Source: Schizochytrium sp. TIO01 (Eukaryota; Sar; Bigyra; Thraustochytrida; Thraustochytriidae). Taken from it: a stretch of DNA of 64,000 nucleotides. The stretch is taken from NCBI GenBank assembly GCA_004764695.1, contig SMSO01000037.1, forward strand, positions 3,160,337 through 3,224,336, given 5' to 3'. Below are positions 15,731 through 38,410 of the stretch, one piece after another. How positions within the stretch are numbered: the first letter of the stretch is position 1; each line of letters starts with the position of its first letter. The position numbers and the translations under genes were made by a program. The notes under the pieces were generated by a model. It was not told the origin of the DNA and did not search any database. It saw nothing but the letters and a program-made list of their open reading frames with translations.

Positions 15731-18700
15731 CGAAGAAGACAAGCATTTCACATCTCATCACACATTAACTTCTACTTTCACCCTATAACGAAACAAACTC
15801 TCAGACTTTCACACACTTAAAATATTTTGTTTTGTTTTTGGTACAATACCTAATTCAACCTATCTATCTTCATCACCCTGACTAACAGTGCCCTCTTCAT
15901 ATAGAGCCTTACTATAATTGCCAAGTATAAGGATGGTATCTTCCCACGTACACGTTCTGCAGGCAAGTTGTTGTTTTAATCTGTAGAAATTTTGGCGTCT
16001 CCCCTCTTGTCACGAGACGGCAATTAGTTAAAAGACACCATCAAGACAAAGATTACCCAGCACGACGTGTTGTTGGACACACAGGCCATTCTTCTCCTTC
16101 TGCTCTTGCTTGTTCCAGAATGCACTCAAGGATTGCTCGCGTCAAAACCCAGCCAAGTATCTGCTACACAAACAAAAATGTCAAGGATCATCAGAAGGAG
16201 GACGAAAGTACACAAACAGGTATGAGCAGCTAAATTACGATAAAGAACTACGAAATCATATAAAGAAAGGATCATTCAAGTAGGAGGTCGACACGAAATA
16301 CTTGTGATGGAAATAATACGAGGCACGTTTGTTTTGATTCGAAATCATCAGAAGAAAAGTTGGTGGTCCGGGGGGTTGTGATCCGGACACCACAGAAACA
16401 GCTGAGTGTGGCCGTGCACTAGGCTCACACATAAACATACATCAGGATGGTTCTAGTTCATATGGTCATGGGCGTCTCTCCAAAAGTCGTGCGTGCGGGT
16501 TAGTGGGGCGCGCCGGCACGTTTGAGTTTGTTGAGTCCATTTCAAAGCTCATCTTAAATACGTTCGCCAACTCAGCCTCAATTTCTTCCATATCTGATGG
16601 CAGATCAAAGAACATCATGGGCTCATGTGAGTCAACGTACTTTGGGGACGGTGCTTGGACAAATCGTGCGTGGTGGTCGTGAAGGTGCATATGTCCCTCC
16701 AAAGACGTCGGCAAGGATGAAGAGAGCATATTCCTTACTATAGATCTCTGTACTTCAGCTTCTTCGAGCACTACTTAGTAGAATCTCTTCTTTAGCTTCT
16801 GCAGTCTTTTGCCCAAGCTCACAGAGGTCTTTTATAGACAGAGTCTCCGGTCCTTCAGTTGCGTCTGCCTACCTGAGGCGCTTTGAGCAATCCAGCCAAC
16901 ACAATTCCCAAAACCCACAGCAAGTAAGACTTCCTCGTGTATTGCACAAAGCTTTGCCTTTGGCTGTTGTCACAACACTCCTCCTCCTCCTCCTCCTTCT
17001 TCTTCTTCTTCTTCTTCTTCTTCTCCGTGCTCAATGCTTGCTCGTCCAAGCAGTCAATGGTCACTGGATGAGTCAATTCTGGGTTTGCTGAGTCTCCAAT
17101 GCTCCAATGATGCTCGTGTGGCGGCTCGCTGACCTCCAACTTGGGGCTCTGCTTTCTTCCAACTTCGCCTTCACTTGACTAATAAGTTGAACATTGTCTT
17201 TTCTTTTCTTTTCTCACCCACATATTATTGGGGCAAATAGGTCCCGCATAGAACCTACCTAGTACTTTCATGTACTCTATTTAGCATGAAAAGAACTCTG
17301 TCTATGGAAATGGCTATCGGGCATTTTGCTCAATCAACTTCTGAAAACCTACCTTGCAAGACAAAACGCCTGCTATTTGGCAGCTGCCCGGGTGAATGGG
17401 CTCGCTTGAAGAGTCCTTACACGATGTCGATGCGGTCATCTCTGAGCAAACACTGAGTTTTCATTTCCACCATCATCCATGTCTCTCGGTGGCTACTTAT
17501 CTTCAGACTAGAATTTTAAAGGAAAGAATAGAGTTTTTATTTAATATATATATATATGCCTATTTATACCTCTAGAGAGGTATATTTATATATTCTTTTA
17601 AAATACGATTAATTGCCTTCTAGGTTGGCTGGATGCCTGGCGTCGATGATTTCTGCTTCATCATCATAAGCGTTGTTCTCGTGAGTCACTTCTAGCAGAT
17701 GCGATGGAAAGCACTTAAGTGCCAGCCACTCCCCGCAATGAATCGCGCAAAGATGCCGTCAACGACCTTGGTGCGGGTTGTTTTGCAGTCCTCAAGCATT
17801 AAATTTGCAGTCCTGGCAATTAAAACAGAATCCGATGAAATGCTGCTACGACTACTTTTTATAAATTCTTGTCTTGGAACTACCTTTTCCTTCTAACGCT
17901 GTGCTCAATGGACGATGGATGGTGCATTGACGACGACGAATCGATGACGATGAATTGGCTTCAGTAGGCTTATTACAGTGATGGTGGTGGCAATGAAGAT
18001 GCTACGCTCCCAGCACATCTTAAAACGCGGCTGGTCAAGTCTTCTGCCTTTGAATTAATGGTCCCAAAGCGACGCGGGAAATCAGCGCCGAGTCGCTCCG
18101 AGCAAGCGCAAGAGCTCAGCAAACAATTGAGCAACACATCAATTGTATAGGGTATGCATAGATCTACGCATTCTTTTATGGCGTGAATTTACTGCTTCTA
18201 AAAGAAAACTTGAAAAAGCGCATTCGCGAATCACAATGAACACGCTCCAAGGGTGAAGACCTCGGATGATGCACCAGGGGCACAGACCACACGGTCCATG
18301 TGCTACCTGATTCCTATATCTTCTCCGATACAATCAGCCCTCAGGCCCCGGTCTTCGTGATCTTTCGAACGAGACTCGCGCGTCGTCGAGTTCTCACCCT
18401 TTTCATAATTTCTCTCATCACCATTCTTGCTTCGTGTTCAGACGCCCACTAAATAGTCACTACCGCCGCGCGCCACCTATTCTATCTTACCAGACTGCAG
18501 ATATTGACCGGATTAACAAGAATGCAATGAAATGTGTCTGCTGACTTATCCACCATATGTGTCGCACTTTGCAACCCATTATAAAACTCAAACAAAGGAA
18601 TAGTGAACTAAAATACAAATAACACCTGGTCCATTGATATTGGCAATGTCCGCACTCGGTGTGCGCGCGTACATGTACAGAGAACAGAAAGAACAGTTCG

Positions 18701-20106
18701 GCGCCAACTCGAGTTTATTGGCATTTGTCAAGTTTCCATGGGGTTGAGGGATAAAGCAGACAAACAACTTGCAAAAGACAACTGAGTGCTTGGGTATTGG
18801 TAGCCGTCTGCTGCGCATTTAAAACTCTCAACTCACTGGTAATCGATAGTTTTAGAGTGAAGTTAATCGTGTCTTGAAATTGATGATGGCCTGTTCTTTC
18901 CAAGTTTGAGTTGAACTCCCCTAAAATTAAAAAACTTCTAAAGTTGTTACGAATTAACCAATAAAAACAAAGGAAAGAAAGAAAGAAAAAATGTTTTAGT
19001 TGAGCGCGGCATTTGGTAAGAAAAGGGACCGCAAGAAGGAGGTCAAATGATGACTTGATAAGAGCAGGAATTGAGTCCACAACCTGAATAAATGCAAGAT
19101 CAAAGTCCATCTTCGCATAGGACAGGGTCTCGCGCGGAACGGGGCCTGGGCTGACAAATTTCATGTTCGAAATCATTTCGCCCGACGTGCTGGGAGGGAA
19201 AGGTGAACTCGAATAACCAGATGCCGGCTGGGGAAGAAACGGACGACCAGTGATGGCATGAGCTGGGGCAGGCGAAGGCGAATGGATGGTCACCTAGAAG
19301 GTCTTCGATGAAATCACTCTTGTAATTATTTTGACAATACTCTTTGACAAGTGCATAGTGCACGTGGTGGTACCAGTGGTGCTATAATTCACGTCTCATG
19401 ACAATGGCGATGACATTGAGTGTTTATGATGTCACTGGAAAGAACTAGGAATCAATGTTATTGTTCCATTTGACTCACCAAGACCCTGCCTGTGTTCCCC
19501 AGCAACCAATGCCGGGACGCCCTGCGAGCACGCTAAAGGTGGTGAGACAGAGAAGCTTTATGTTATTAGAGATTAATTGCAGAGTTACTAAAAACATGCT
19601 TCTTCATACTCTTTCCTATAAAGCGTGGTCAAAATCCAAGACCCGGTACAACTGTGCATGATTATAATATAGCAGTAAACGCCCTCTTTCGCAGTCCATC
19701 TGGCCGCCGCACTTGGATTATTTCCAGCTCCTTCATGAGTAATTTCGGAGACAACCCTAAGACCCTAAGATCCTTTAGCAGCGGACACGACTGAGCTTGG
19801 TATGTTTTATTTTCAGGATTCTGAAGTTGATATCATAGTGTAAATTTCGGGCAATACCTTGTCCCTTGGTTCATACATTTAGGCTCTAGAAGCAGCAATA
19901 ATCACACCACTACGACATCAAAGTAGCAGACTTCCTTGTCTCAAACTTACAGGTAAAAATCACCCTTCAAAAAGAAAAGAATACAAAACGTCAATAGGTA
20001 TGTATGCAGGGAAGCAGGAAAGAATTCAACAAGCCAAGGATTGGAGACATTTTGGCCAGTGAAATCGATGATATCATATTATTCTATATGAGCTAGTAGG
20101 ACCATC
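15731..20106. other. 4.4-kb region without a supportable gene
   Basis: After the CNOT4 stop this stretch contains only weak reading frames. Candidates on the minus strand (16466-16771, 16855-17139, 18715-19363) lack ATG starts or break up, though the one around 19000-19360 has some protein-like character and could be exons or a relic. A CTT/CTC microsatellite lies at 16978-17023, an AT-rich stretch with a 9-bp inverted repeat (TATACCTCT, AG, AGAGGTATA) at 17566-17585, and a TA run just before it. I see no rRNA, tRNA or transposon terminus. Confidence 0.4.
16978..17023. repeat. CTC/CTT trinucleotide microsatellite
   Basis: About six CTC followed by about nine CTT triplets in tandem, on the plus strand. 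Read on the minus strand the run would encode Glu then Lys repeats, but no supported gene contains it. Confidence 0.85.
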
Positions 20107-20475
20107 ATGAAACGATGGCGAGCAGAAATGTCCAGCAATGATATGTTCCCGGGCAGCAACAGGACTCAGCTCAGGATCGCCGACGTGCCTTCTTCCGATG
20201 TCTATATTTGCCGCGACCAGATCAGTCCCTATATCATGGACGATCATAATCTTCTCCGAGCTTTTGTGCGCAAGAGAACGTCTCCCGATGAAGTTGTGTA
20301 CCAATTCACACCAGGTCAGCGATTACTACTGACGAGGCATGACACCAAGACAAAGGAACAATTTATAGGCATGTTTGAAATTGTACAGGCCACCTACGAC
20401 CTGAGCCCAGCCACGATGAAGCTCAAGCGGGACGTGGTTGATCTCATTCTAAAACCTCTACCCCCAATTAAGTAG
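20107..20475 (+). CDS. Orphan 122-residue protein beside the Fic gene
   Basis: A complete small frame from ATG to TAG with balanced, globular-looking composition (VVYQFTPGQRLLLTRHD near residue 63-80). There is no signal peptide, membrane helix or motif that I recognise. It converges on the Fic gene; the two stops are only 22 bases apart, separated by an AT-rich stretch that could terminate both. It could be a partner or regulator of the Fic protein, since bacterial Fic enzymes often sit beside small antitoxins, but nothing in the sequence itself shows such a function. It may also simply be an accessory-region orphan. Confidence 0.55.
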   Translation: MKRWRAEMSSNDMFPGSNRTQLRIADVPSSDVYICRDQISPYIMDDHNLLRAFVRKRTSPDEVVYQFTPGQRLLLTRHDTKTKEQFIGMFEIVQATYDLSPATMKLKRDVVDLILKPLPPIK

Positions 20476-20497
20476 ACTTTTTAAATTAAAAAAAACG

Positions 20498-21148
20498 TTA
20501 GTAAGCCAATTCTAATGCATTTGTTTCCAGAGAAGCTTTGACATACTCTAGAAAGATAGGAATGTGGCGACTTGTCCTCTTGCGTTCTTGTTGAAGCGTC
20601 ACTAAGTAAAGGCGTTTGGGGAAAAGTTGCAAGTTGGCATGGCATGCGAGGTCGTCGGGTGAAAACTTGAGCAAGTAAGGGTGAATCAAATCAGTGCATG
20701 GTGGCGCCAGGCCGCTGTGTTCGAGGATCCAGGCGAAGAGCACTCGCACAGTCCTGCCATTACCATTGGCGAAGGGATGAATGTCGAGGAATGTAGCATA
20801 AAACCTAGTGATGCTCTCGATGGACCACATGTCTAGTTCTCGAACCAATCTTTCAATCTTGGCGTGGATTTCGTGTGGCAAACAATAAACAATAATATCC
20901 TTCGAAAGTTCACCTTGAGAAGTAAGCCTTCTAGTAAAGGCTACTTGAGTCCTAAATTTATTATTATTATGCTGAGAAGTTAAAACTTTTCCGTTGATCG
21001 TTTGGATAAACTCGATCGTTAAGCCACCGCGATGCAACCGCGCGAAGTCTAACGCTACTCCCAATGCTTCGGCCTTCGCCGGGGTTGGGTGTGAGGACTC
21101 CATATTTAATGCACTCGCGACGAAGCGAGCGCGCAAGTACTCACACAT
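20498..21148 (-). CDS. Fic-domain protein (putative AMP transferase)
   Basis: A 216-residue protein with the Fic signature HPFANGNGRTVR near residues 124-135. Fic enzymes transfer AMP or another phosphate-containing group to hydroxyl side chains of target proteins. The His acts as base and the GNGR loop binds phosphates. The residue before GNG, usually Asp or Glu and a magnesium ligand, is Asn here; Asn is known in some family members, but activity may be altered. An upstream segment, NNNKFRTQVAFTRR, resembles the Fic flap. Near the N-terminus, SALNMESSHPT resembles the inhibitory alpha-helix (S/T-x-x-x-E-G/N) that obstructs ATP, so the protein may be self-inhibited. No signal peptide or membrane helix, hence probably cytosolic or nuclear. 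It is the last of six minus-strand genes. Its first eight codons and upstream region occur a second time at about 22975-23160, behind another zinc-finger gene. Confidence 0.85.
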   Translation of the reverse strand: MCEYLRARFVASALNMESSHPTPAKAEALGVALDFARLHRGGLTIEFIQTINGKVLTSQHNNNKFRTQVAFTRRLTSQGELSKDIIVYCLPHEIHAKIERLVRELDMWSIESITRFYATFLDIHPFANGNGRTVRVLFAWILEHSGLAPPCTDLIHPYLLKFSPDDLACHANLQLFPKRLYLVTLQQERKRTSRHIPIFLEYVKASLETNALELAY

Positions 21149-21311
21149 GCTTTACGTAGCAAATTTTTTTTTTTCGCGTTTAATAGTTAGCTTTGCTTCT
21201 TTGCGCACTTCATTCACCATTCAATCCTAATACATATTTATTAATATGCTAAATAAAAATCTGTATATTCCTTGATCTTCTCTCCCGGTTTAAGAATTTG
21301 ATGGAACCATT

Positions 21312-22925
21312 CTAGTATTTTTTTTGGCGAACATCTGGTCCCGACAACCTTGTGTCTACTTTATGGTTTTGCCTAAAGTGCTTGATGATAATATTTTTCG
21401 ATTTATAATGTCTTCCACAGAAATCGCACAGAAATATTGGGTCCCCACCCTCCGGGTTGTATTTCAATATATCAATATAATCAAGAACCACCCTAGTCAC
21501 AAGTGACGGGTCAATGGGAAAGTTCACAATCTTAAATTTAACCGGCAACATAATTTCTGTGTAGAGTTTGACCTTGTCTCCTGTTTTCAGAAATTGACGG
21601 CGCCACTCCAGCAGTTTTTGGCGGTTATCTTGGTCAGCCCTTTTAGCAGCATTATGGTTTAACTCAATGTGTTCTGTGATATCGTATTTACTTTTAAATA
21701 TACTTCCGCAGAAATCACACAGAAATAATGGTTTCCCATCCACCGGGTTGTATACCAATATGTCAATATTATCACCAACCGTTCTAGTCACAAGTGACGG
21801 GTCAGCGCGAAAGTTTGGAAACGTATTCCGAATCGGCAATTTGATATCTGCATAGAGTTTGGGTTTCTTCCCTAGTTTAACAAATTTACTGCGCCATTCC
21901 AGTAGTTGTTGGCGACGCTCTTGGTCAGATAAACGCTTGTGTAGTTTATGTGCGTATTTAATATGCCTGTCAATACTCGCTTTCAATTGATAATGTCTTC
22001 CACAGAAATCGCACAGAAATATTGGGTCCCCACCCACCGGGTTGTATACCAATATGTCAATATTATCACCAACCTCCCTAGTCACAAGTGACGGGTCAAT
22101 GGGAAAGTTTGAAAACTTATTCTTATCCGGCAACATAATTTCTGCATAGAGTTTGACCTTCTCGTTTGGTTTAACAAATTGTCTGCGCCACTCCAGTAGT
22201 TGTTGGCGACGGTCTTGGTCAAGCAACCTTTTCAATCCTCCATGTATGTTTTCAATATGACTGACCAAATTATATTTATCTTGGTAATTTTTTCCACAGA
22301 AATCACACAGAAATAATGGTTTCTCGCCCTTCGGTTGGTATTTCAAGATGTCAATATCATCACGAACCACTCTAGTCACATATCCCGTGTCAGTGATAGA
22401 GATTGTTGGGTAGTTATATTTACCCAGCAACTCAAATTCGTTATAGAGTTTGAGCTTCTCTTCTGGTTTAACAAATTTACTGCGCCATTCCAGTAGTTGT
22501 TGGCGTTTTTCTGCATCTGAATATTCTGCTGCTGCTGGTGATAATGATGCTTTGGGATACTGCGACAAAGCTGTTTCGTTACCGTCTTCCCAATCCATCG
22601 CATCAAACCCCTCTAGAGTATGTAAAGAATCATTATCTTCCCAATCTACCTCACCAACCCCCTCTAGGGTATGTACAGAATAATCATCTACCCAATCAAC
22701 ACTTGCTGGTAAATTTAGGTTGGATGAGCTTTGTTCCATTTCTGTTGGTGACCCAAAATCCCACGTGAGTTGATCATTATCCACACGCGGCCCCACTCCA
22801 CTGTTCGGTGTTGGCTTGTCACCAAAAGCATTACTTACATCAAAATCCTCCTCAACAGAACTAGCATCACTGCCGTCCAAGGAGTGTTTCCGTTTCTGAC
22901 CAGTAAGTTGCTCCAAGAATGTCAT
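21312..22925 (-). CDS. Zinc-finger module protein ZF-D (four C2H2 modules)
   Basis: A 537-residue protein and one of four tandem paralogues. The first ~150 residues (MTFLEQLTGQKRKHS onward) are acidic, with two copies of an S/V-HTLEG repeat around WED. Four modules of about 95-105 residues follow. Each opens with a helix (QQLLEWRRQFV), has a KLY-x-E/D-I-x-LP strand and a VTR-x-V...IDIL-x-Y segment, and ends in one finger of pattern C-x2-C-x12-H-x4-H (CDFCG...). Such fingers usually bind nucleic acid; the wide spacing between fingers is not that of ordinary tandem C2H2 arrays. A basic KRKH near residue 12 may serve nuclear import. Its start differs from the other copies: one base is missing in the MKK leader, so ATG at 22925 is used. 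The next gene, fic, begins 163 bases downstream. No named family is recognised for the module. Confidence 0.85.
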   Translation of the reverse strand: MTFLEQLTGQKRKHSLDGSDASSVEEDFDVSNAFGDKPTPNSGVGPRVDNDQLTWDFGSPTEMEQSSSNLNLPASVDWVDDYSVHTLEGVGEVDWEDNDSLHTLEGFDAMDWEDGNETALSQYPKASLSPAAAEYSDAEKRQQLLEWRSKFVKPEEKLKLYNEFELLGKYNYPTISITDTGYVTRVVRDDIDILKYQPKGEKPLFLCDFCGKNYQDKYNLVSHIENIHGGLKRLLDQDRRQQLLEWRRQFVKPNEKVKLYAEIMLPDKNKFSNFPIDPSLVTREVGDNIDILVYNPVGGDPIFLCDFCGRHYQLKASIDRHIKYAHKLHKRLSDQERRQQLLEWRSKFVKLGKKPKLYADIKLPIRNTFPNFRADPSLVTRTVGDNIDILVYNPVDGKPLFLCDFCGSIFKSKYDITEHIELNHNAAKRADQDNRQKLLEWRRQFLKTGDKVKLYTEIMLPVKFKIVNFPIDPSLVTRVVLDYIDILKYNPEGGDPIFLCDFCGRHYKSKNIIIKHFRQNHKVDTRLSGPDVRQKKY

Positions 22926-22929
22926 TTTT

Positions 22930-22974
22930 TATCGTTTGTTAAATAAAACAAATACTATTTTGATTTATGATTTA
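22930..22974 (-). promoter_or_regulatory. Conserved leader of ZF-D
   Basis: About 45 AT-rich bases before the start (on the minus strand: CAAAATAGTATTTGTTTTAT, then TTAACAAACGAT) that recur almost unchanged in front of all four zinc-finger genes. The copies lie at about 24785-24828, 25904-25942 and 27090-27127. Conservation of a non-coding leader through all duplications, in such short gaps, suggests that it is the promoter or 5' leader. In the ZF-A copy it directly overlaps the end of the NTPase-nuclease gene. Confidence 0.6.
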
Positions 22975-23161
22975 AGCGAGCGCGCAAGTACTCGCACATG
23001 CTTTACGTAGCAATTTTTTTTTTTCGCGTTTAATAGTTAGCTTTGCTTGTTTGCGCACTTCATTCACCATTCAATCCTAATACATATTTATTAATATGAT
23101 AAATAAAAATCTGTATATTCCTTGATCTTCTCTCCCGGTTTAAGAATTTGATGGAACCATT
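22975..23161 (-). pseudogene. Duplicated fic start and ZF 3' flank
   Basis: This gap between ZF-C and ZF-D repeats, with few changes, the stretch from the ZF-D stop to the eighth codon of fic (21124-21311). On the minus strand it reads MCEYLRAR as fic does and then runs at once into the ZF-D leader and a stop. It is a scar of a tandem duplication of one zinc-finger gene together with the beginning of fic, and it shows that ZF-C was once followed by fic. Confidence 0.8.
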
Positions 23162-24784
23162 CTAGTATTTTTTTTGGCGAACATCTTGTCTCAACAACCT
23201 TGGGTCTACTTTATGGTTTTCCTTAAAGTGCTTGATGATAGTATTTCTCGATTCATAAGGTCTTCCACAGAAATCGCACAGAAATATTGGGTCCCCACCC
23301 ACCGGGTTGTATTTCAATATATCAATATAATCAAGAACCTCCCTAGTCACATGTTCCGGTTTAGCGGGAAATTTTTTTAACTTAAAAGTAACCGGCAACA
23401 TAATTTCTGTGTAGAGTTTGGCCTTCTTTTCTGGATCAACAAATTGACGGCGCCACTCCAGCAGTTTTTGGCGGTTCTCTTGGTCAGTCCTTTTAACAGC
23501 ATTATGGTTTAACTCAATGTGTTCTGTGATATCGTATTTACTTTTAAATATACTTCCGCAGAAATCACACAGAAATAATGGTTTCCCATCCACCGGGTTG
23601 TATACCAATATGTCAATATTATCACCAACCGTTCTAGTCACAAGTGACGGGTCAGCGCGAAAGTTTGGAAACGTATTCCGAATCGGCAATTTGAGATCTG
23701 CGTAGAGTTTGACCTTCTCTTCTGATTTAACAAATTGTCTGCGCCACTCCAGTAGTTGTTGGCGACGCTCTTGGTCAGATAAACGTTTGGCTAGTTTATG
23801 TGCGTATTTAATATGTCTGTGAATACTCGCTGTCGATTGATAAGGTCTTCCACAGAAATCACACAGAAATACTGGTTCCCCATCCACCGGATTGTATACC
23901 AATATGTCAATATCAGGACGAACCATTCTAGTCACAAGTGACTGGTCAGCGCGAAAGTTTGCAAACTTATCCTTATCCGGCAATTTGATATCTGCATAGA
24001 GTTTGACCTTCTTATCTCGATCAACAAATTGACGGCGCCACTCCAGTAGTTGTTGGCGACGCTCTTGGTCAGATAAACGTTTGGCTAGTGTATGTGTGTC
24101 TTTAATATGCCTGACCAAATTACGTTTATCTATGTAATATTTTCCACAGAAATCACACAGAAATATTTTCTCCTTCTCATTCGGTTGGTATATTAAGATA
24201 TCAATATCAGGACGAACTATTCTAGTCACAAGTTTTTGATCATTGATTTTAAGTAGAGGTAAGCTGTTAACGGGCAATCTGATATCTGCATAGAGTTTGA
24301 CCTTCTTTTCTGGATTAACAAATTGACTGCGCCATTTCAGTAGTTGTTGGCGTCTTTTTGCATCTGCATATTCTGCTGCTGCTGATGATGATGATGATGC
24401 TTTGGGATACTGCGACAAAGCTGTTTCGTTACCGTCTTCCCAATCCATCGCATCAACCCCCTCTAGAGTATGTAAAGAATCATTATCTTCCCAATCTACC
24501 TCACCAACCCCCTCTAGGGTATGTACAGCATAATCATCTATCCAATCAACACTTGCTGGTGAATTTAGGTTGGATGAGCTTTGTTCCATTTCTGTTGGTG
24601 ACCCAAAATCCCACGTGAGTTGATCATTATCCACACGCGTCCCCACTCCACTGTTCGGGGTTGGCTTATCACCAAAAGCATTACTTACATCAAAATCCTC
24701 CTCAACAGAACTAGCATCACTGCCGTCCAAGGAGTGTTTCCGTTTCTGACCAGTAAGTTGCTCCAAGAATGTCATTTTTTTCAT
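23162..24784 (-). CDS. Zinc-finger module protein ZF-C (four C2H2 modules)
   Basis: A 540-residue paralogue of ZF-D with the same acidic N-terminal region and four C2H2 modules. It starts MKKMTFLEQL. Its third module (from LPIRNTFPNFRADP through the finger CDFCGSIFKSKYDITEH) is identical, or nearly so, to the third module of ZF-D, while modules one and two have their own finger residues. This points to gene conversion or exchange of modules. Modules run about residues 140-245, 245-345, 345-440 and 440-535. The stop is followed by a duplicated fic start rather than by a real fic gene. Function is inferred as for the other copies: a possible nucleic-acid or protein-binding adaptor. Confidence 0.85.
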   Translation of the reverse strand: MKKMTFLEQLTGQKRKHSLDGSDASSVEEDFDVSNAFGDKPTPNSGVGTRVDNDQLTWDFGSPTEMEQSSSNLNSPASVDWIDDYAVHTLEGVGEVDWEDNDSLHTLEGVDAMDWEDGNETALSQYPKASSSSSAAAEYADAKRRQQLLKWRSQFVNPEKKVKLYADIRLPVNSLPLLKINDQKLVTRIVRPDIDILIYQPNEKEKIFLCDFCGKYYIDKRNLVRHIKDTHTLAKRLSDQERRQQLLEWRRQFVDRDKKVKLYADIKLPDKDKFANFRADQSLVTRMVRPDIDILVYNPVDGEPVFLCDFCGRPYQSTASIHRHIKYAHKLAKRLSDQERRQQLLEWRRQFVKSEEKVKLYADLKLPIRNTFPNFRADPSLVTRTVGDNIDILVYNPVDGKPLFLCDFCGSIFKSKYDITEHIELNHNAVKRTDQENRQKLLEWRRQFVDPEKKAKLYTEIMLPVTFKLKKFPAKPEHVTREVLDYIDILKYNPVGGDPIFLCDFCGRPYESRNTIIKHFKENHKVDPRLLRQDVRQKKY

Positions 24785-24823
24785 CGTTTGTTAAATAAAA
24801 CAAATACTATTTTGATTTATGAT

Positions 24824-25903
24824 TTATTTTCTGTTTTTCTTCTGCTTCTTCTCTAGTGCCGTTCCGGTCAGCGTCGCCTTTTGCAGGGTGAAATATGGCC
24901 CCGACAGCCATGTGTCTAGATTATGGTCGCGTCTAAAGTGATTCATCAATATATGTTTACGTGCATAATCTCTACCACAAAAATCACACACATATCTTGT
25001 CTCCTTACTATTCGGCTGGTATACTAAGATGTCAATATCATCATGAACCTCTCTAGTTACAAGTTTTGGATCATCGATTTCAATTAGAGGTTTCCTGTTA
25101 ACGGGCAACTTGATGTCTGTGTAGAGTTTAAGCCTCTCTCCTGGTTTAACAAATTGTCTGCGCCATTCCAGTAATCGCCGGCGACGGTCTTGGTCAGACC
25201 CTATTACTACACCATGAACGACGCGAAAGTGCTGTACCACGTTATCTTTATATTGAAAATATTTTGAGCAAAAATCACACATATATATTTTCTCCTTCTC
25301 ATTCGGTTGGTATATTAAGATATCAATATCAGGACGAACCATTCTAGTCACAAGTTTTTTATCATCGATTTCGATTAGAGGTACCGTGTTAACGGGCAAT
25401 CTGAACTCTGCATAGAGTTTGGCCTTCTTTTCTGGATTAACAAATTGACTGCGCCATTTCAGTAGTTGTTGGCGTTTTTTTGCATCTGCATGTTCTGCTG
25501 CTGATGATGATGATGATGCTTTGGGATACTGCGACAAAGCTGTTTCGTTACCGTCTTCCCAATCTATCGCATCAACCCCCTCTAGAGTATGTAAAGAATC
25601 ATTATCTTCCCAATCTACCTCACCAACCCCCTCTAGGGTATGTACATCATAATCATCTACCCAATCAACACTTGCTGGTAAATTTAGGTTGGATGAGCTT
25701 TGTTCCATTTCTGTTGGTGACCCAAAATCCCACGTGAGTTGATCATTATCCACACGCGTCCCCACTCCACTGTTCGGGGTTGGCTTGTCACCAAAAGCAT
25801 TACTTACATCAAAATCCTCCTCAACAGAACTAGCATCACTGCCGCCCAAGGAGTGTTTCCGTTTCTGACCAGTAAGTTGCTCTAAGAATGTCATTTTTTT
25901 CAT
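24824..25903 (-). CDS. Zinc-finger module protein ZF-B (two C2H2 modules, chimeric end)
   Basis: A 359-residue paralogue with the conserved N-terminal region (~1-140) but only two modules, with fingers CDFCSKYFQYKDNVVQH and CDFCGRDYARKHILMNH. The first finger has Ser in place of the usual Gly after the second Cys. The last ~25 codons (ending EKKQKKNRK) do not match the other zinc-finger proteins; at DNA level they match the 3' end of the NTPase-nuclease gene (27122-27200), including the shared TTCTGTTTTTCTTCTGCTTC. A duplication breakpoint thus gave this gene a new tail. The next gene, ZF-C, starts only 39 bases after its stop. Confidence 0.83.
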   Translation of the reverse strand: MKKMTFLEQLTGQKRKHSLGGSDASSVEEDFDVSNAFGDKPTPNSGVGTRVDNDQLTWDFGSPTEMEQSSSNLNLPASVDWVDDYDVHTLEGVGEVDWEDNDSLHTLEGVDAIDWEDGNETALSQYPKASSSSSAAEHADAKKRQQLLKWRSQFVNPEKKAKLYAEFRLPVNTVPLIEIDDKKLVTRMVRPDIDILIYQPNEKEKIYMCDFCSKYFQYKDNVVQHFRVVHGVVIGSDQDRRRRLLEWRRQFVKPGERLKLYTDIKLPVNRKPLIEIDDPKLVTREVHDDIDILVYQPNSKETRYVCDFCGRDYARKHILMNHFRRDHNLDTWLSGPYFTLQKATLTGTALEKKQKKNRK

Positions 25904-26006
25904 CGTTTGTTAAATAAAACAGATACTATTTTGATTTATGGTACTTAAATAGATTGCTAAATTAAAAAAAAAATAATGTGCGTAGAACTAGACCTTCTTT
26001 CCTGAT

Positions 26007-27089
26007 TTAAGGATTTGACGGCATCAATCCCGACAACCTTGTGTCTAGTTTATGGTTGCGTCTAAAGTGAACTACCAACATATGTTTACGTGCACAATCT
26101 CTACCACAAAAATCACACACATATATTGTCTCCTTACTATTCGGCTGGTATACTAAGATGTCAATATCATCATGAACCTCTCTAGTTACAAGTTTTGGAT
26201 CATCGATTTCAATTAGAGGTTTCCTGTTAACGGGCAACTTGATGTCTGTGTAGAGTTTAAGCCTCTCTCCTGGTTTAACAAATTTACTGCGCCATTCCAG
26301 TAGTTGTTGGCGACGCTCTTGGTCAGATAAACGCTTGTGTTGTTTATGTGCGTATTTAATATGCGCGCGAATACTATCTTTCGATTTATAATGTCTTCCA
26401 CAGAAATCGCACAGAAATACTGGGTCCCCACCCACCGGGTTGTATTTCAATATATCAATATAACCAGGAACCTCCCTAGTCACAAGTGACGGGTTAATGG
26501 GAAAGTTCACAATATTAAATTTAACCGGCAACATAATTTCTGTATAGAGTTTGACCTTCTCGTTTGGTTTAACAAATTGACGGCGCCACTCCAGTAGTTG
26601 TTGGCGACGCTCTTGGTCAGACAATCTTGACAATTCTCTATGTATATTTTTAATATGCTTGTAAATACTGGTTTTCACTTCAACTTGTGTTCCACAGAAA
26701 TCACACAGAAATGATGGTTTCTCGCCCTCCGGTTGGTATATTAAGATATCAATATCAGGAAGAACCTTTCTAGTCACATATCTCGGGTCAGGGATAGTGC
26801 TTGGAACCTCAATTCCAATGGGCAACTCAAATTCGTTATAGAGTTTGGCCTTCTCTTCTTGTTCAATAAAGTGACTGCGCCATTCCAGTAGTTGTTTGCG
26901 TGTTTCTGCATCTGAACTAGCATTTGTACCTGCATGTACACGCGTCTCTACTCCACTGTTCGGTGTTGGCTTGTCACCAAAAGCATTACTTACATCAAAA
27001 TCCTCCTCAACAGAACTAGCATCACTGCCGTCCAAGGAGTGTTTCCGTTTCTGACCAGTAAGTTGCTCTAAGAATGTCATTTTTTTCAT
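26007..27089 (-). CDS. Zinc-finger module protein ZF-A (three C2H2 modules)
   Basis: A 360-residue paralogue. The N-terminal region is shortened: after the common start (MKKMTFLEQL to about residue 48) it lacks the HTLEG/WED repeats and goes straight to three modules. The fingers are CDFCGTQVEVKTSIYKH, CDFCGRHYKSKDSIRAH and CDFCGRDCARKHMLVVH. The last module is nearly the same as the last of ZF-B; the middle one resembles modules of ZF-D. Its start codon lies only 33 bases after the stop of the NTPase-nuclease gene, so its leader begins inside that gene's end. Such spacing is extreme for a eukaryotic nucleus and suggests co-transcription, or a very compact promoter as in large DNA viruses. 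Confidence 0.85.
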   Translation of the reverse strand: MKKMTFLEQLTGQKRKHSLDGSDASSVEEDFDVSNAFGDKPTPNSGVETRVHAGTNASSDAETRKQLLEWRSHFIEQEEKAKLYNEFELPIGIEVPSTIPDPRYVTRKVLPDIDILIYQPEGEKPSFLCDFCGTQVEVKTSIYKHIKNIHRELSRLSDQERRQQLLEWRRQFVKPNEKVKLYTEIMLPVKFNIVNFPINPSLVTREVPGYIDILKYNPVGGDPVFLCDFCGRHYKSKDSIRAHIKYAHKQHKRLSDQERRQQLLEWRSKFVKPGERLKLYTDIKLPVNRKPLIEIDDPKLVTREVHDDIDILVYQPNSKETIYVCDFCGRDCARKHMLVVHFRRNHKLDTRLSGLMPSNP

Positions 27090-27121
27090 CGTTTGTTAAA
27101 TAAAACAGATATTATTTTAAT

Positions 27122-30040
27122 TTATGATTTATATTCTGTTTTTCTTCTGCTTCTTCTTCTACCAGTGCTCTCGTGCCGTTCCACTCTGTTAGTCCGCGTC
27201 GCGTTTCGTGCCTTGTTCATAAATTGAACGTCTCCCCAAAAAACGCCGGCAAGATCACTATGACCACCATCAATGGCCAAAACAATGTCATGGGTATTCT
27301 CGTGACAACCCATGGCGTCGCAATGGATATCTTGAATGTTTTGATGAAGCTCATCAAGATTTGATGTTCCAATTAGTTTTGGGTCAGCATCGCCGCGGCG
27401 TGGGTGACGCAAGAAAGAGCTCAAAAAATCACTCCCTGGTCCTGTCTGACAAACCATCATAATCACAGGACGACGACGGGATTCCCAATCTAAATCCAGC
27501 ATGAAGTCAGTGCATGAGGGGTTCTTGTTATTGCTCTTACACAAGTATTGGTTTTCAGCTTTAACTTCACAATATCGTTGCTCAGAGGCCATATCCAGGT
27601 CCAGCCCGTTAACTCGGAAGAACTGTTGACACGTTTCGAGTATGCTTTCTAATGTTTGCTTGTTGTAGACGCCCCAGTGAAAGAGATCATAATTAGCCCC
27701 ATCATACGGATAGTTCCGAGTCATAGTCTTGGACCTGAAAACCAGTTCCGGAAATACACTCACTAAGGCCTTCCTGTTTAGAGTATTAATTTTCTCAAGG
27801 GATTCACCGTAGTTAGGGTGTTTAACCTGTATCATGACGGGGACGAAAGCATCATCGCTAGTGAGATCCTCCACCGATGTACGACGCATCATCGTTATCA
27901 CATCAGCACCAAAGTTATCAAAGGGGTAACAAAAGGGTTCGATGAAATCCATCCTGCCCGTCGAGGAGAGTTCGTTCATGTTGCTTAACCACTCCAGCGT
28001 CCCATTATAACCCCGGGTACAATTCCTCACCAATTTTCCACATGACGATCTTGTGGGCATTTCAAGTTTTTCAAAGGCCAATGCGCGGTGGTCTTCATCG
28101 TCGTGTATAGTGATGTCCTTTGCATGTTCTAGTGTAGCACCCATGTTTTTGAAAGTACACAGCATGGTATAATACTCTAAATAGACCGCCGGCGGCTTTT
28201 CCGTATCAACCTCACCCGTCAAAATGGCGTCTTTAACGAACTTAAGAAGAGAACCGTCCTTAAGAAAACTGTGCAGTGCCGCCTCGAGTACCAGAGGTTC
28301 CGTAAATGTGACTTTGATATTTATACCGTCTCTTCGTGACCTTTTTTGAGTCACTTGTAGGACTTGGCACAACCCTACATTGACCAGTTTTGGTGTAAAC
28401 TCTCCCGATAACGGGGCGGGCTGATCTGTGAAGAGATGTGTTACGAGTGCCTCTTTGACTTTGTTGAGTCTATCGGCATTTTCGTCGTCTTGGATCCGCT
28501 CGATTGCAGTCTGTGCGGTGGAGCCTTTTCCATAGCGCCAGGATAATCTTGATTCACGTTCAGATGTTGATAGATTATCAAATACGTCTGGCCGTGTCAT
28601 GACTGTGACGAAGCGTCGTATCTCTTTGAGGAACATATCGTTGAGGTTTCCAGAGTTTTCATACTTTCGTGCCAACAGGAGATCCATGAATGCAACTGTC
28701 CACCTAGGTCGTCCTGTAAGCCACTTGCACGTATACTCAAGAATATCCCGATCCAATGTGCTCAAGTCTAGAATACTTCCAAGATAGGCTTCAACACCAT
28801 CCTTGTCTAGTGACTTAAAGTCATAATGCAAGGTCTGGATGAAGGAAGCTTTTCCAGTCGCACTGGAAAGTTGCGTTATTATGTGAGCGACCGAGAAACC
28901 CGTACCAGAGAAGATGGGGTAATATATGCGTTGCTGAGTACGTTTTATAGCATTGAGCGTTAGGGAAAATGGTGAGAGCAAAGATCGTTTCTGGCTTTCG
29001 TCTGTTGTGGAGACAAAGTAGTCCATGAAACTTTCTGCTAGTATCTGTGCTTCGTCAACGGCTATATTAAACTTGATAGGATCTATTGATGATCCAATGT
29101 TATCCCAGACGTTATCTATGCAGTTGTTACACTGAATCGATCTTTCACACAATTTAGTGACTTCGCTAACATCACTTGAGAATCCTAAATGAAATTTGTT
29201 GAGGAGAAATTCAAAGACATCATATCCGAAATAATACTTTGGTGTCAGCTGTACGCGAAGCCATAGCTCACAGGTAAGTTCTTCTCCGAAGACGTGTCGA
29301 AGTACGCAGAAAACTAAAAGTCGGCAGAATATCAGAGCGTTTGTGTAGACGCTTAAAATCTTACTATTTTCCTTCGGATTAGATTTGTTGAAAAATAGCC
29401 CCAGTCCTTCGTAAATGACTGAGAAATCGGAGCTGCCTGGATTCAGAGTTTGGGCGTCAGCTGCAACGAAATATAGTCCGTAGCTTCTCACGAAAATCTC
29501 GAAAATTGTTCTGGTCTTTCCAGCACCTGAGGTGCCGTAAAAACCAACGACCGATGAGTGGGCACCATGAACAATAGCCTCAAGGAGTTCGCTATCCTTA
29601 GGAAAATGCTCTCCGAGTTCATGAGTAAGGAAATCAGGGACTGCGCTAAGAGAGGCAATATTTTTCGGAACCCGGACATCGCTGCGGAGAAGGTCCTGGA
29701 ATGTGCCTTTTGGCTCGAAATATTCTATATCACGGAAAAATATATCCGAATCGTCTGTGATTCGCTGATACAGAGTATCCAGGGTCTCGGAGACCGATGA
29801 CATCGCCTTATAAAAAAAATACTCAGCTTCTGCCGGTTTTAGCTGCCGATTAATATTCGCAATGGCGTCGTCATAGCGCTTGGCCATTTCTTCGGCGATG
29901 CCTTCCGTCGCGAGTAGTGATTCATAGAGCTTGTTGATCTTGTTGTTTAGTTTTTTCACGGCATTTTCCGCAGTCTCATAGCGGGTGAGGACATCGTGAA
30001 GTGGAGAAGACCACATATGGGTTGCTGCGCCATCCGCCAT
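27122..30040 (-). CDS. Crinkler/RHS-like P-loop NTPase with PD-(D/E)XK nuclease domain
   Basis: A 972-residue protein. An N-terminal helical region (~1-110) is coiled-coil-like. Then comes a P-loop NTPase: Walker A GTSGAGKT at 169-176, a Walker B-like NIAVDEAQ at 325-332, and LTGRPRW near 441-447, where relatives carry a conserved GRPR. A C-terminal domain has GAD at 711-713 and IQVK at 737-740, spaced and placed in strands as in PD-(D/E)XK nucleases. This NTPase-plus-nuclease order is that of Crinkler-RHS-type proteins, known from oomycetes, chytrids, other protists and trypanosome retrotransposon hot spots; several are secreted effectors that act in host nuclei. The usual ubiquitin-like Crinkler header and a signal peptide are absent, so an intracellular role is as likely. 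The ATG at 30038-30040 fits. It heads the six-gene minus-strand cluster and is intact from end to end. Confidence 0.82.
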   Translation of the reverse strand: MADGAATHMWSSPLHDVLTRYETAENAVKKLNNKINKLYESLLATEGIAEEMAKRYDDAIANINRQLKPAEAEYFFYKAMSSVSETLDTLYQRITDDSDIFFRDIEYFEPKGTFQDLLRSDVRVPKNIASLSAVPDFLTHELGEHFPKDSELLEAIVHGAHSSVVGFYGTSGAGKTRTIFEIFVRSYGLYFVAADAQTLNPGSSDFSVIYEGLGLFFNKSNPKENSKILSVYTNALIFCRLLVFCVLRHVFGEELTCELWLRVQLTPKYYFGYDVFEFLLNKFHLGFSSDVSEVTKLCERSIQCNNCIDNVWDNIGSSIDPIKFNIAVDEAQILAESFMDYFVSTTDESQKRSLLSPFSLTLNAIKRTQQRIYYPIFSGTGFSVAHIITQLSSATGKASFIQTLHYDFKSLDKDGVEAYLGSILDLSTLDRDILEYTCKWLTGRPRWTVAFMDLLLARKYENSGNLNDMFLKEIRRFVTVMTRPDVFDNLSTSERESRLSWRYGKGSTAQTAIERIQDDENADRLNKVKEALVTHLFTDQPAPLSGEFTPKLVNVGLCQVLQVTQKRSRRDGINIKVTFTEPLVLEAALHSFLKDGSLLKFVKDAILTGEVDTEKPPAVYLEYYTMLCTFKNMGATLEHAKDITIHDDEDHRALAFEKLEMPTRSSCGKLVRNCTRGYNGTLEWLSNMNELSSTGRMDFIEPFCYPFDNFGADVITMMRRTSVEDLTSDDAFVPVMIQVKHPNYGESLEKINTLNRKALVSVFPELVFRSKTMTRNYPYDGANYDLFHWGVYNKQTLESILETCQQFFRVNGLDLDMASEQRYCEVKAENQYLCKSNNKNPSCTDFMLDLDWESRRRPVIMMVCQTGPGSDFLSSFLRHPRRGDADPKLIGTSNLDELHQNIQDIHCDAMGCHENTHDIVLAIDGGHSDLAGVFWGDVQFMNKARNATRTNRVERHESTGRRRSRRKTEYKS

Positions 30041-30193
30041 CCTTGCCAGTTTGCTCGCTCTGAGTTTGGGGTTTGTTTGCTAGCTTGCATTAACGAGGGA
30101 GACTTGTTCTTGGAAAGTTCGGCGATAGGGGTGTGTGAGGCTAAAGAACATATTCGATTCATACCTTTTCTTTTCTTGCTATAACCAGGTAGA

Positions 30194-30403
30194 ATGGAAA
30201 GCGGCCGGCGCGCTAGGAGGTACGAACAACAGCGCGTGAACCTGGGTGTCCTTGGCCGGGGCTTCGTTGCCTTACTTGTCCTCTTTTACTTGACGACTTA
30301 CCTACCAATACTGAACCCTAATGTATCTGATAATAGTCTCTTACCTGATATCGAAAACCCTAACAATTTGGACTATCTACGTGCACACGGAGTCAAAATA
30401 TAG
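30194..30403 (+). CDS. Small single-pass membrane protein
   Basis: A 69-residue frame from ATG to TAG. A basic N-terminal stretch (SGRRARRYEQQR) is followed by one hydrophobic helix (~residues 20-37, VLGRGFVALLVLFYLTTYL) and a polar Asn/Asp-rich tail. It is divergent from the NTPase-nuclease gene, with about 150 bases between the two starts, which may share a promoter region. No family recognised. The positive residues before the helix suggest the N-terminus faces the cytosol. Short, so moderate confidence that it is expressed. Confidence 0.5.
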   Translation: MESGRRARRYEQQRVNLGVLGRGFVALLVLFYLTTYLPILNPNVSDNSLLPDIENPNNLDYLRAHGVKI

Positions 30404-30693
30404 ATTAGAAAAAAAAGTTGCTTTCAAATACTAACGATGTGTTTCAAATACAAGACCTAATGGCTCGTCGCGCTTCAAAGACGACCATTTCCGTTCTTGG
30501 AACGTTCCTTTCGTTCGACGCAAAATATTTCATGCTTTTGAGGATAGAAGACCTTGAGAACACAAATTTATATGACGGAAGCCATTGGCGCAGACCTTAC
30601 AGATGTTGAAGTCGAAATCTACCTGAATCGTTTTCTTTCTGGTTTTACTGCCGAGTATTTGTCATCTTTGTACACAGCTTATTGGACTAATTA
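30404..30693 (+). other. Short frames, possible gene remnant
   Basis: Two small overlapping ATG frames lie here in different phases: one from about 30459 (MARRASKTTISV, ending at 30609) and one at 30572-30694 (MTEAIGADLTDVEVE, 40 residues). Reading them as one gene needs a frameshift near 30570. The second stop overlaps the next possible ATG (TAATG at 30692-30696). This could be a decayed gene or 5' exons of the next gene. Confidence 0.3.
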
Positions 30694-31682
30694 ATGAACA
30701 TGTACAATGTAAAAAATGGCCCTTGTGTAATAAATACTCCTAGCTCAAAAACATCACATCAGAAGATGTCGCGGCAGAGATTGAACTGTTCTTCAGTGCA
30801 GGTGCAACAAAGAATCGGCAATGGAAGAGCAACAAGGCGTTGACGCGGCTTTACTATGCACTGTATGATGCCATTCGTCTCTGTCACTATGACACCATCT
30901 TGGATAAGAAAAAGAACAAATGGGCAATTTATTTCACGTTTCTTCACAAACAAATTGAATATTCTACAAAGGCTGCGCAGGATTACGCCAGTGAATACAA
31001 AATATTAAAAAAGTCATTTAATGATGACCGCATCAAGGATAGGCTGAAAGAATCACTCCCGGGTCTACTTGCCCAAATGGTACTGACTTATGGCATGGAG
31101 GCATCTTCGGGAAAAAAACACAAACACAATCCGTCGTCACCAAATGCACCTTACGCCGCCTGCAAACACGCAGAAGACATTGATACAGATACCCTATATA
31201 AGCCATCGGATCACTTCAAAGATTGGCAAAATAATATGGAACAATTGTATGAAACCCAGGGCCACGTGAAGGCTTTACATAGAGACTGCGAACTCCATTC
31301 TCCGCCACCAATCTACGGAAACGTTCATGCTTCATCGTTAGCCCCAACCTATCTATCAGCATATTACCTTTGTTGCGATATATTTAATCCTTATTCTGTG
31401 TTCCAGGGAGCTGCTGGAGTTAAACTTAATATTCTGAAACACAGTGCCGATGAAATTGCTATTGGTAAGTATTCTGTTTACTCGTTAATCCTCAATAAAC
31501 TGGATCCAGCTAAAAACTCTGCATTCGATGGGCTTGTAAAGAAATGCTACGAGGCATGGAAAAATACATGTGAAGACATTACTGTTGAACACCAACACAT
31601 GAAAAGTATCTTGAGCTTCGAGGACAGGAATTTGGATGAACGTTTAAAGGAAACTAATATTGATAGCTTGAGTCTATACTAG
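30694..31682 (+). CDS. Orphan protein, probable short intron at 30709-30743
   Basis: The clear coding frame runs from 30744 to the TAG at 31680-31682 without an ATG for its first ~110 codons. Joining ATG AAC ATG TAC AAT (30694-30708) to it by removing a 35-base segment that begins GTAAAAA and ends CTCCTAG gives a continuous 317-residue protein. The junction phase and GT-AG ends fit, so I use this start, but such a small intron needs transcript proof. The protein is soluble in character, with Tyr-rich and Lys-rich stretches (TRLYYALYDAIRLCHYD, LSAYYLCCDIFNPYS). I recognise no domain. It lies on the plus strand in the accessory island, followed by the decayed gene from 31761. Confidence 0.45.
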
Positions 31683-33087
31683 GCTATATTAATAAACTTT
31701 TTTTAAAAATAGTAATTAATGAGTACTTTCTACCTCTTTTTTTTTTTTTTTTTTCCAAAAATGAACGATACATTCGACCACTTTGAATTCCCGACCGATT
31801 CTTTGCGGATCTTGTTCAAGACAAGACCCAATGATGAATCATACTTGAAAATTACGCTGGCAGAGAATTGGCGAGATAATTTTTCTGCTTTCAGATGGTA
31901 TCCCGAACGCACCAACGCAGTCAGAAGAATGATTGAGAGGGATGACACAGAAAGGCTTCTCATTAAGCTACTCGTAAGTCGTAACTTGAAACGATTAGAA
32001 ATAACAGTGGAGTCCACTTTAGATGAAATTGTACTGCAGGATATGGTGTTTTTTTTTCATGGATCGAATTACCCCGGCTCTTCAACACACCGTATTAACT
32101 GAATTAGTATTTCGCCACAACGAGCTGTTTTGGTTTGATGTAATCAAATATGTCGAGATAAAGACAGAGAATTTGCGTCTCGTCGTCTCTGATTTTTGCA
32201 AATCAGAAGAACCCATCTTCGACGAGTTGCCGAGTGCCACACTTATGTGGGCGACCAAGATAGAACTTGAAGGGCCCTTGAAAGGATTTTTGGGGAGAAT
32301 GGGTTTTATCACTAAAAGAAGCAATGTCAATGTCAATGAACTGAACTTTAATGTAACTAACACCGACTTCCTTGCAAATGATAATTTTGGGCCTGATTAT
32401 ATGAAGCCTATAGTTATTGAGTACCTCGAAAATATTTGGAATACCATCCGCCCAATGGCCTGACGGTGTTTCGGTTTACTATTCCTGAAGTGCGCCCACT
32501 GGATATTATGACTTATGTGAATAAGTTAGTAAAGTCAAATGAGACTTCCACCATGGTGCAGTACAAATGCCTACACTAACAGGAATTTATGTTCAATTTC
32601 CGAAGTATTGGGGTCGTCCGCTAGATAGGGTTGAAAATATCATTCTACGAATGCTTTGTTTTCTTCAATTATTGTCTCCGATGGCTCATCGGATGGGAAT
32701 GTAGAAAGACTCATGGATGGACGTGGCTATGGCAATCACATTAGTTCCTACTAAATTGGATTTGCTGACGTTTGATAATGAAAGTGATAATACTGAATTG
32801 TTTTTCAACGACACTCATCTCGTAAAGAACATTTTCAAGATTCGGAGAGATGTGTTGTTTTGGAATCAAGTTCGGGTGATTTTGCAAGGCCGGATGTTCG
32901 AAAATAAAACTTCTGAGTTAATGTTGGTCGGTATTAACAGCACACGGTTCAATAATGCCCGTCGATTCGACGCACGTGACAGGAAGTCGGAATGGCTTCA
33001 TGCTTACTTCAACATTTTTCTCAGCATACTTGCTGATATTGGAAAGAAGCTCTTGGTGTATAAATCTATCCAGAACAATTTAGACAC

Positions 33088-33447
33088 TAATGAAACGTGG
33101 TTATGATTACTTAGAGGTATTTGGGGAAATGTCTTAGGTGGTAGTAATTAGTTATTACTATGACTAGGATTGTCTTGTAGAATGTGCTTGATAAATTCAA
33201 GTGCTTCTGGTCGCTTTGGTATTTCGGGTCTGCCTGCAGGTTTTGCTTTGCAGACTCCTCTTGATGCTTGCTTGATTCCCTTCATTCCCTGGTTGATTCC
33301 GGCGCAGTGTTGTACATCACCCATCATGCCATCATGACATCACCCATCATGCCATCGTGACACTTTTGTCCTGCTTTCGTCAGATAGGGGCTCCTCTTAA
33401 TCTTGCGAAGTCATGTCGCAGAGATGTGTCTGAATTCCTTCTCAGTA
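33088..33447 (-). repeat. 3' LTR of the copia element
   Basis: 360 bp, matching 38411-38770 except for two substitutions that I can see (GTAGTAATT against GTAATAATT, and CTATGACTAGG against CTATGGCTAGG). In element sense it begins TACTGAG and ends TTTCATTA, not the usual TG...CA. It contains a direct repeat ATCACCCATCATGCCATC near its middle. The pol stop codon lies inside it, at 33380. Confidence 0.93.
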
Positions 33448-37976: not shown

Positions 37977-38378
37977 AGCTATGGCTCCTCCATTGTTTTT
38001 TCGATAAGAAATGCGCTTCCAGGTTCTCCCATGCCTTGAGGCCTGACATGGTTTCTGTATTGTTCTTGTTCATGACGAAAAGTAAGTCTCCTTGTGAGCT
38101 TACTATTCCTACTAGAAAGGCATATAGTTTTGTAGTTTAGTCATTGGATCAGTACACGCTCGTATACTTGCTGGATTTAGGTTCCTTATATTCATATTAG
38201 TAAGTAATTCAATACGAGTTGTTCTCCACGTATCTATCCCACCAATCTTTATTTGGGGTAGACTCCATCTCGAGTGGTCGAAGATGGCATCACCTACGAT
38301 CCTCCTATTTTCTCGGTTGGCACTGGCCGTCGCGTCTGTATGAGACGAGGAGGTTGCGTTTTCTTCGTGTTGAGACAT
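37977..38378 (-). pseudogene. gag start region of the copia element, frame-broken
   Basis: Gag begins at the ATG at 38376-38378 (MSQHEENATSSSH). The frame ends at 38112 within PF-stop, while coding sense continues in another frame (FLVGIVSSQGDLLFVMNK...) until a run of six A near 38005, where it changes again into the long gag-pol frame. Two frame breaks within 120 bases make the copy unable to produce an intact Gag, unless these are assembly errors. Confidence 0.7.
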
Positions 38379-38397
38379 TTTTCCAAATGAGTTATCT

Positions 38398-38410
38398 TGG
38401 GCCCATAACC
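38398..38410 (-). promoter_or_regulatory. Primer-binding site, half-tRNA-iMet type
   Basis: The plus strand reads TGGGCCCATAACC, the anticodon stem and loop of eukaryotic initiator tRNA-Met; the element's RNA is therefore complementary to the inside of that tRNA and not to its 3' end. It touches the 5' LTR. This is how Drosophila copia and yeast Ty5 prime, with a tRNA half. Confidence 0.8.

Follow-up and report, generated by a model that had tools for sequence, protein, structure and literature searches.

Arrays of C2H2 zinc-finger proteins of the KRAB-ZFP type expand against mobile elements, and Fic proteins that actively transfer AMP carry the consensus motif HxFx(D/E)GNGRxxR. In this study, we were interested in a block of six genes in the thraustochytrid Schizochytrium sp. 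TIO01, in which a gene for a nuclease-like protein of 972 amino acids (aa), four C2H2 zinc-finger (ZF) genes and a fic gene follow one another on one strand. The window analysed is the whole stretch of 64,000 nucleotides (nt) around the block (GenBank assembly GCA_004764695.1, contig SMSO01000037.1, positions 3,160,337 to 3,224,336). For proteins of the Crinkler-RHS type, excerpts from a review of Zhang 2016 give an NTPase with a restriction endonuclease (REase) as a main architecture, suggest that Myb-headed plant members act on invasive intracellular DNA, and place such proteins in non-pathogens too (PMC5289972). For the Spok proteins of Podospora, excerpts state that the nuclease is needed for killing and that a kinase and a zinc-finger-like cysteine cluster are needed for resistance (PMC6660238), and that the killing targets DNA (PMC9972908).

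Like Crinkler-RHS proteins, the nuclease of the block has a P-loop NTPase and, C-terminal to it, a putative PD-(D/E)XK region. Unlike them, it shows no recognised header domain by eye and matches no Pfam family, and the block has putative DNA-binding fingers in trans, in adjacent genes, plus a Fic gene. A separately encoded DNA reader would be a natural variation on the Crinkler-type layout. The block resembles Podospora Spok in its putative PD-(D/E)XK nuclease, its zinc fingers (a zinc-finger-like cysteine cluster in Spok), its candidate modifying enzyme and its occurrence at several genomic locations, whereas Spok is, in the excerpts of PMC6660238, a single protein with a kinase and no described NTPase, and the block consists of separate genes with a Fic protein. 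Like KRAB-ZFP-type arrays, the ZF genes are tandemly duplicated, with conserved zinc ligands and variable contact residues, but each of their ~97-aa modules holds a single finger preceded by an additional conserved domain, and the Pfam matches listed include neither a KRAB nor a SCAN-like domain. The Fic protein has the Fic domain and GNGRxxR core of Fic/Doc proteins (SoFic-like, mobile mystery protein B), but it is only 216 aa long, falls below the cut-off of every NCBIfam family among the matches listed, and has Asn at the usual acidic position of the motif. Neither the nuclease-ZF-Fic combination nor a Crinkler together with a Fic domain was found among the literature matches listed, which include one review that names both Crinkler and thraustochytrid, once each (PMC5772912).

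The linkage of nuclease, ZF and Fic genes is real and probably old, eroding elsewhere in the genome and complete in this one block. All six genes are intact minus-strand open reading frames (ORFs), from ATG to stop, at the coordinates given by a first-pass annotation (Table 1). Its gaps of 103, 39, 236 and 163 nt are confirmed, and its gap of 33 nt between the nuclease and ZF4 is corrected to 32. The cluster is confirmed as an observation. The Fic domain scores 44.9 bits against a Pfam cut-off of 24; ZF1, ZF2 and ZF4 exceed the Pfam C2H2 cut-offs, with ZF3 marginally under (26.3 bits, cut-off 27; a BED finger is marginally over its own); and the motifs of a putative NTPase-nuclease (P-loop, DEAQ, SGTG and E...D...QxK) are present in a 15-sequence alignment. 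With six genes per 9.5 kb, the block is gene-dense compared with the average of Aurantiochytrium sp. TWZ-97, for which excerpts of the genome report give 11,858 genes predicted in 62.5 Mb (genome size 62.49 Mb, GC content 45.01%; PMC12258536). The GC content of the window (~45%) and the size of the genome that holds it (64.06 Mb) are similar.

Table 1. Features of the block and its flanks (positions in the window).
Feature	Position	Strand	Description
Left flank, 122-aa ORF	20107..20475	+	convergent with fic
Fic-domain protein, 216 aa, motif HPFANGNGRTVR	20498..21148	-	PF02661, E 2e-11
ZF1	21312..22925	-	N-terminal region and 4 C2H2 modules
ZF1-ZF2 gap	22926..23161		holds duplicated fic 5' fragment, junction near 22974
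ZF2	23162..24784	-	N-terminal region and 4 C2H2 modules
ZF3	24824..25903	-	N-terminal region and 2 C2H2 modules; 3' end carries nuclease-tail-derived DNA
ZF4	26007..27089	-	short N-terminal region and 3 C2H2 modules; start 32 nt past nuclease stop
Nuclease, 972 aa, Crinkler/RHS-like	27122..30040	-	helical N-terminal part, AAA+/STAND-like NTPase, PD-(D/E)XK signature region, basic tail
segA, nuclease 5' flank	30313..30401		partly common to C13, C36:4.52M and C30 nuclease copies; kept at block-less C24
segC, right flank	30401..30596		common to C24, C13 (nuclease), C31 (fic) and C13:1.52M

Linkage was searched in this one genome (64.06 Mb in 37 contigs), other loci of which are labelled C24, C30:3.13M and so on. 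The nuclease family comprises the window copy, ten other loci and one 36-aa match outside the ten; the region compared at each of the ten was 10 kb, except 18 kb at C9. Traces of ZF sequence lie 3' of the nuclease at four of the ten. They are strong and directly 3' of the nuclease at C30:3.13M (~58 aa, 50%, E 2e-9) and C35 (27 aa, 81%, E 3e-7); at C13 the homology ends 15 nt into the ZF start; and at C4 a weak 26-aa module match lies ~0.9 kb past a nuclease remnant (tblastn E 0.003; hidden Markov model E 1e-4). The distance from nuclease stop to ZF start is 38 nt at C13, 63 at C35 and 77 at C30, against 32 nt in the window.

Of the copies of its Fic subfamily found in the genome, only the window gene is both unbroken and full-length. 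Five other copies are broken or truncated, as their frames read without considering introns: those at C13, C31:3.30M and C31:5.65M have an in-frame stop, that at C31:0.80M has split frames, and that at C33 is without the N-terminal 79 residues. Eight more matches are limited to the Fic motif region. The copies at C31:0.80M and C33 adjoin a flank whose window counterpart is 9.3 kb from fic, beyond the nuclease, and order and strand are as in the window (stretches of 74% and 84% at C31:0.80M; of 75%, E 1e-14 and 4e-9, at C33). At C13, a convergent ORF ~20 nt from the Fic copy has two modules distantly similar to those of the ZF proteins (hhalign E 3e-5, probability 72%); this likeness is suggestive only, because the ORF as query did not recover the window ZF genes. 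A match to the start of the 122-aa ORF lies 1.2 kb beyond fic at the same locus (88 nt, 76%). The C2 nuclease copy and the C33 Fic copy each have, as judged by eye, an EGF-like protein next to them (L035:220-2574 and L046:3716-4706), and the repeats of the two are similar.

The C24 locus carries the flanks and not the block: the sequence from ~20480 to 30312 of the window (9.8 kb) is absent and the outer flanks adjoin. The order there is a counterpart of the 122-aa ORF (90% over 401 nt, frame broken), 26 nt, segA (90%), a 185-nt segment, segB, that is missing from the window, and segC (88%). The nuclease copies at C13, C30 and C36:4.52M are likewise preceded by parts of segA, and the C36:4.52M matches to segA and segB are weak (E 2e-4 and 6e-4). 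Searched against the whole genome, the C24 flank has matches at five places related to the block (its own locus C24, the window, C13:6.27M, C31:0.80M and C30:3.13M) and, with its right part only, at three further ones (C13:1.52M, C31:5.74M and C34); that search did not list C33, where the match came from direct comparison. No block gene was found within 3 kb at C13:1.52M, and the genome-wide block-gene searches gave no nearby match for C31:5.74M and C34, regions that were not themselves inspected.

Given the remnants at other loci and the lack of the block at C24, nuclease, ZF and Fic genes are most simply explained as an old block, eroded except here. In the simplest history, an ancestral order of [122-aa ORF]-fic-ZF-nuclease-segA-segB-segC would have been copied and then trimmed differently; stepwise insertion in place of a copied ancestral block would be less simple. 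C24 is less likely to be a virgin empty site, given that segA is kept there and that parts of segA lie ahead of the nuclease at three other loci. An ordinary transposon is unsupported as well. Apart from a nearby copia element, no transposase was found among the 20 window ORFs scanned with Pfam, no inverted repeats of at least 60 nt occur in 18000-33500, and by eye the C24 junction shows no clear target-site duplication. A simple insertion unit finds no support since different copies have different flanks in common.

By its motifs, the 972-aa protein belongs with Crinkler/RHS-like NTPases of the AAA+/STAND class and also carries conserved PD-(D/E)XK motifs. Its NTPase motifs are a P-loop, DEAQ, SGTG and WLTGRPRW, and the Walker A Lys and the DE of DEAQ are kept in 15 of 15 aligned homologues, which include two diatoms and a chytrid. 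An environmental protein (P0001) is 64% identical. Among the 14 that reach the C-terminal region, E622, Q738 and K740 are kept in all and D713 in 13. The predicted structure has AAA+/STAND fold matches, with no REase among them; because the matches span mainly residues 103-585, they are uninformative on the nuclease part, for which the predicted model gives the order helix-strand-strand-strand-helix-strand. A sequence search of PDB gave no match, and a known defence family was rejected as the identity of this protein, PADLOC being without a match to it. The copy at C36:4.52M (L034:3522-6389) is open over 956 codons, with Asn at the catalytic Asp, no basic tail and no ZF gene detected. Three other copies, at C33, C9 and C30:8.1M (L036, L037 and L039), sit in segmental duplications (93-94% over 4.7-8 kb) in which neither ZF nor Fic was detected.

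A giant-virus or prokaryotic source was also rejected. Pattern-based scans of viral contigs confirmed no relatives for the nuclease, queried as single protein and as alignment, or for the ZF module, and those of genomic contigs none for the nuclease alignment; BFVD gave no match at E <= 0.001, and phage records no Fic match. A splice fusion of nuclease and ZF was considered for a GT/AG pair seen by eye in the window and dropped because the acceptor is missing in ZF1, ZF2 and the C30 and C35 copies.

The four ZF proteins have 4, 4, 2 and 3 modules (13 in total), in each of which a single C2H2 finger comes after a conserved stretch (LLEWR...KLY...LP...VTR.V..IDIL.Y.P). All four zinc ligands (C-x2-C...H-x3-5-H) are kept in every module. 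Positions -1, 2, 3 and 6 (standard numbering) are the DNA-contact positions of a C2H2 finger, and here they rank with the most variable finger columns: their mean nonsynonymous difference is 0.60, matched by 89 of 3060 four-column sets. This variability falls short of demonstrating positive selection on the fingers.

Two scars record how the array grew. On the fic side, 21123-21480, which runs from the first 26 nt of fic through the spacer into the 3' part of ZF1, is identical to 22974-23330 at 343 of 357 positions. On the nuclease side, 27005-27157, which covers the last 36 nt of the nuclease gene and the 5' end of ZF4, is identical to 24700-24852 at 148 of 153 positions. The first-pass annotation had taken such scars as evidence that ZF genes were duplicated together with fic and with the nuclease tail. 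The scars are real, but whole-gene co-duplication is not borne out: since the coding sequence carried along amounts to just 26 nt from fic and 36 nt from the nuclease, they point to ZF duplication, and the array is best read as the product of unequal exchange without co-duplication of whole fic or nuclease genes.

In PADLOC, the Fic protein matched PDC-S04 (E 2e-9) and SoFic (E 4e-9); TIGR02613 matched at E 3e-5 but with 24 bits against a cut-off of 124 bits. Compared with the stop-free part of the C13 copy, its ratio of nonsynonymous to synonymous divergence (dN/dS) is 0.24 (0.074/0.311, 156 codons), which shows constraint.

A possible explanation, and the one we tentatively prefer, is that an old unit of several genes, [122-aa ORF]-fic-ZF(s)-nuclease-flank, encodes a system for nucleic-acid conflict inside the cell. 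Copies of this unit would have reached several chromosomes and decayed there, leaving the block as the only complete one found. In this scenario, the C2H2 proteins would recognise certain foreign or mobile DNA and recruit or license the NTPase-PD-(D/E)XK protein, which would cut that DNA; the Fic protein may act as a switch by modifying one of the other components (the nuclease or a ZF protein) or a partner from the host, and the site of action would be the nucleus. The architecture would be Crinkler-RHS-like, except that the DNA-reading part would sit in genes of its own, which tandem duplication has multiplied. Joint function of the three components is plausible, a role in nucleic-acid conflict agrees with the motifs of the nuclease and the conservation of the fingers, and the block is a promising candidate for a DNA-conflict or selfish system. 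Crinkler-type nucleases have been studied mainly as secreted effectors, and here a free-living protist holds a block with a repeated nuclease-ZF association. Because a single genome also has decayed copies and a locus lacking the block, a role in intracellular conflict or drive is directly testable in a culturable group.

Several observations weigh against this conflict system. The first-pass annotation had suggested a defence or conflict system, and what stands of that suggestion is a linkage that looks older than the window locus, with motifs and fingers that fit; linkage at most other nuclease and Fic loci was not seen. Within this genome, six of the ten other nuclease loci (C36:4.52M, C2, C33, C9, C30:8.1M and C30:6.42M) have no ZF trace in the region compared, and none of the five other Fic loci has a nuclease match in the 10 kb compared. 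The enzymatic activity of the Fic protein is uncertain, because its motif HPFANGNGRTVR, like those at C13 and C31, has Asn where the HxFx(D/E)GNGRxxR consensus has an acidic residue. No homologues were found at E <= 0.001 for Fic among 643 candidates scored or for the ZF proteins among 7996, and Fic has no PDB homologue by sequence. The aromatic core residue is lost in two of 13 fingers (V, C), and the structure model of the ZF module is poor (predicted local distance difference test, pLDDT, 59). In the ZF genes, dN/dS is 1.02 for the upstream domain of the modules, 0.74 for the contact positions of the finger and 0.42 for its other positions, synonymous change at the contact positions is also high, the median pairwise module value of 0.89 is near neutral, and the N-termini reach about 1.0-1.6 with few changes; relaxed constraint on the ZFs fits these values too. 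It also fits the recent C33-C9 nuclease pair, with dN/dS of 1.78 at a dS of 0.024.

The alternative that survives best, although we consider it rather unlikely, is block duplication without joint function, in which a Crinkler-like gene, an expanded ZF gene and a Fic gene are chance neighbours moved by segmental duplication. Unequal exchange accounts for the ZF tandem array, the nuclease and ZF genes have mid-range dN/dS, and nuclease segmental duplications with other neighbours exist (C33/C9, 94% over 8 kb); the six nuclease loci free of ZF traces agree with it as well. It is harder to reconcile with the traces at C30, C35, C13, C4, C31 and C33, all of which fit one order, with the nuclease-ZF spacing of 32-77 nt at four loci, and with the confinement of unbroken ZF and Fic genes to the complete block.

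A selfish poison-antidote drive locus is unlikely. Here the PD-(D/E)XK protein would be a DNA-attacking poison and the ZF and/or Fic proteins its antidote, so that complete blocks persist and split ones decay. The dispersal of broken copies around one complete block and the C24 locus without the block would follow from such a history, and Spok offers a parallel in which, according to the excerpts cited above, the nuclease kills and the cysteine cluster and kinase protect. However, Spok is one protein with a different architecture, and four nuclease frames (C2, C33, C9 and C36:4.52M) are open without ZF or Fic detected in 10-18 kb, although one of them, that of C36:4.52M, has the substituted catalytic Asp. 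By analogy, the block might more specifically be a split, three-protein counterpart of Spok, spreading as a block, with a Crinkler-like nuclease aimed or neutralised by separate, duplicating ZF proteins and switched by Fic; this we regard as quite unlikely. If true, such a cassette would kill or cut unprotected DNA and survive only where all parts stay together.

A Crinkler-type effector that is secreted to act on diatoms, bacteria, hosts or other organisms and has its neighbours by coincidence would share the NTPase-REase architecture of Crinkler-RHS proteins and is very unlikely, given that by eye the N-terminus is helical, with no signal peptide or LxLFLAK-type header, that the basic C-terminal tail looks like a nuclear signal, and that thraustochytrids are a largely saprotrophic group.

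Other features lie near the block or its relatives. A copia-type retroelement occupies 33087-38709, 3 kb from the nuclease start, with its coding part split over two frames (33380-35647 and 35577-37976); its direct repeats, which resemble long terminal repeats, are 99% identical over 300 nt, suggesting a recent insertion. Between it and the block, a 280-aa ORF (30840-31682) has no Pfam match and has relatives at C3, C31, C30 and C34, the last ~2 kb from the right-flank copy. About 1 kb away from the C24 locus that lacks the block are two tRNA-Asp genes (ARAGORN) and a third segment similar to them (L050:2733-3009). The genome also encodes a PfaA-like polyunsaturated fatty acid synthase that scores over the family cut-off.

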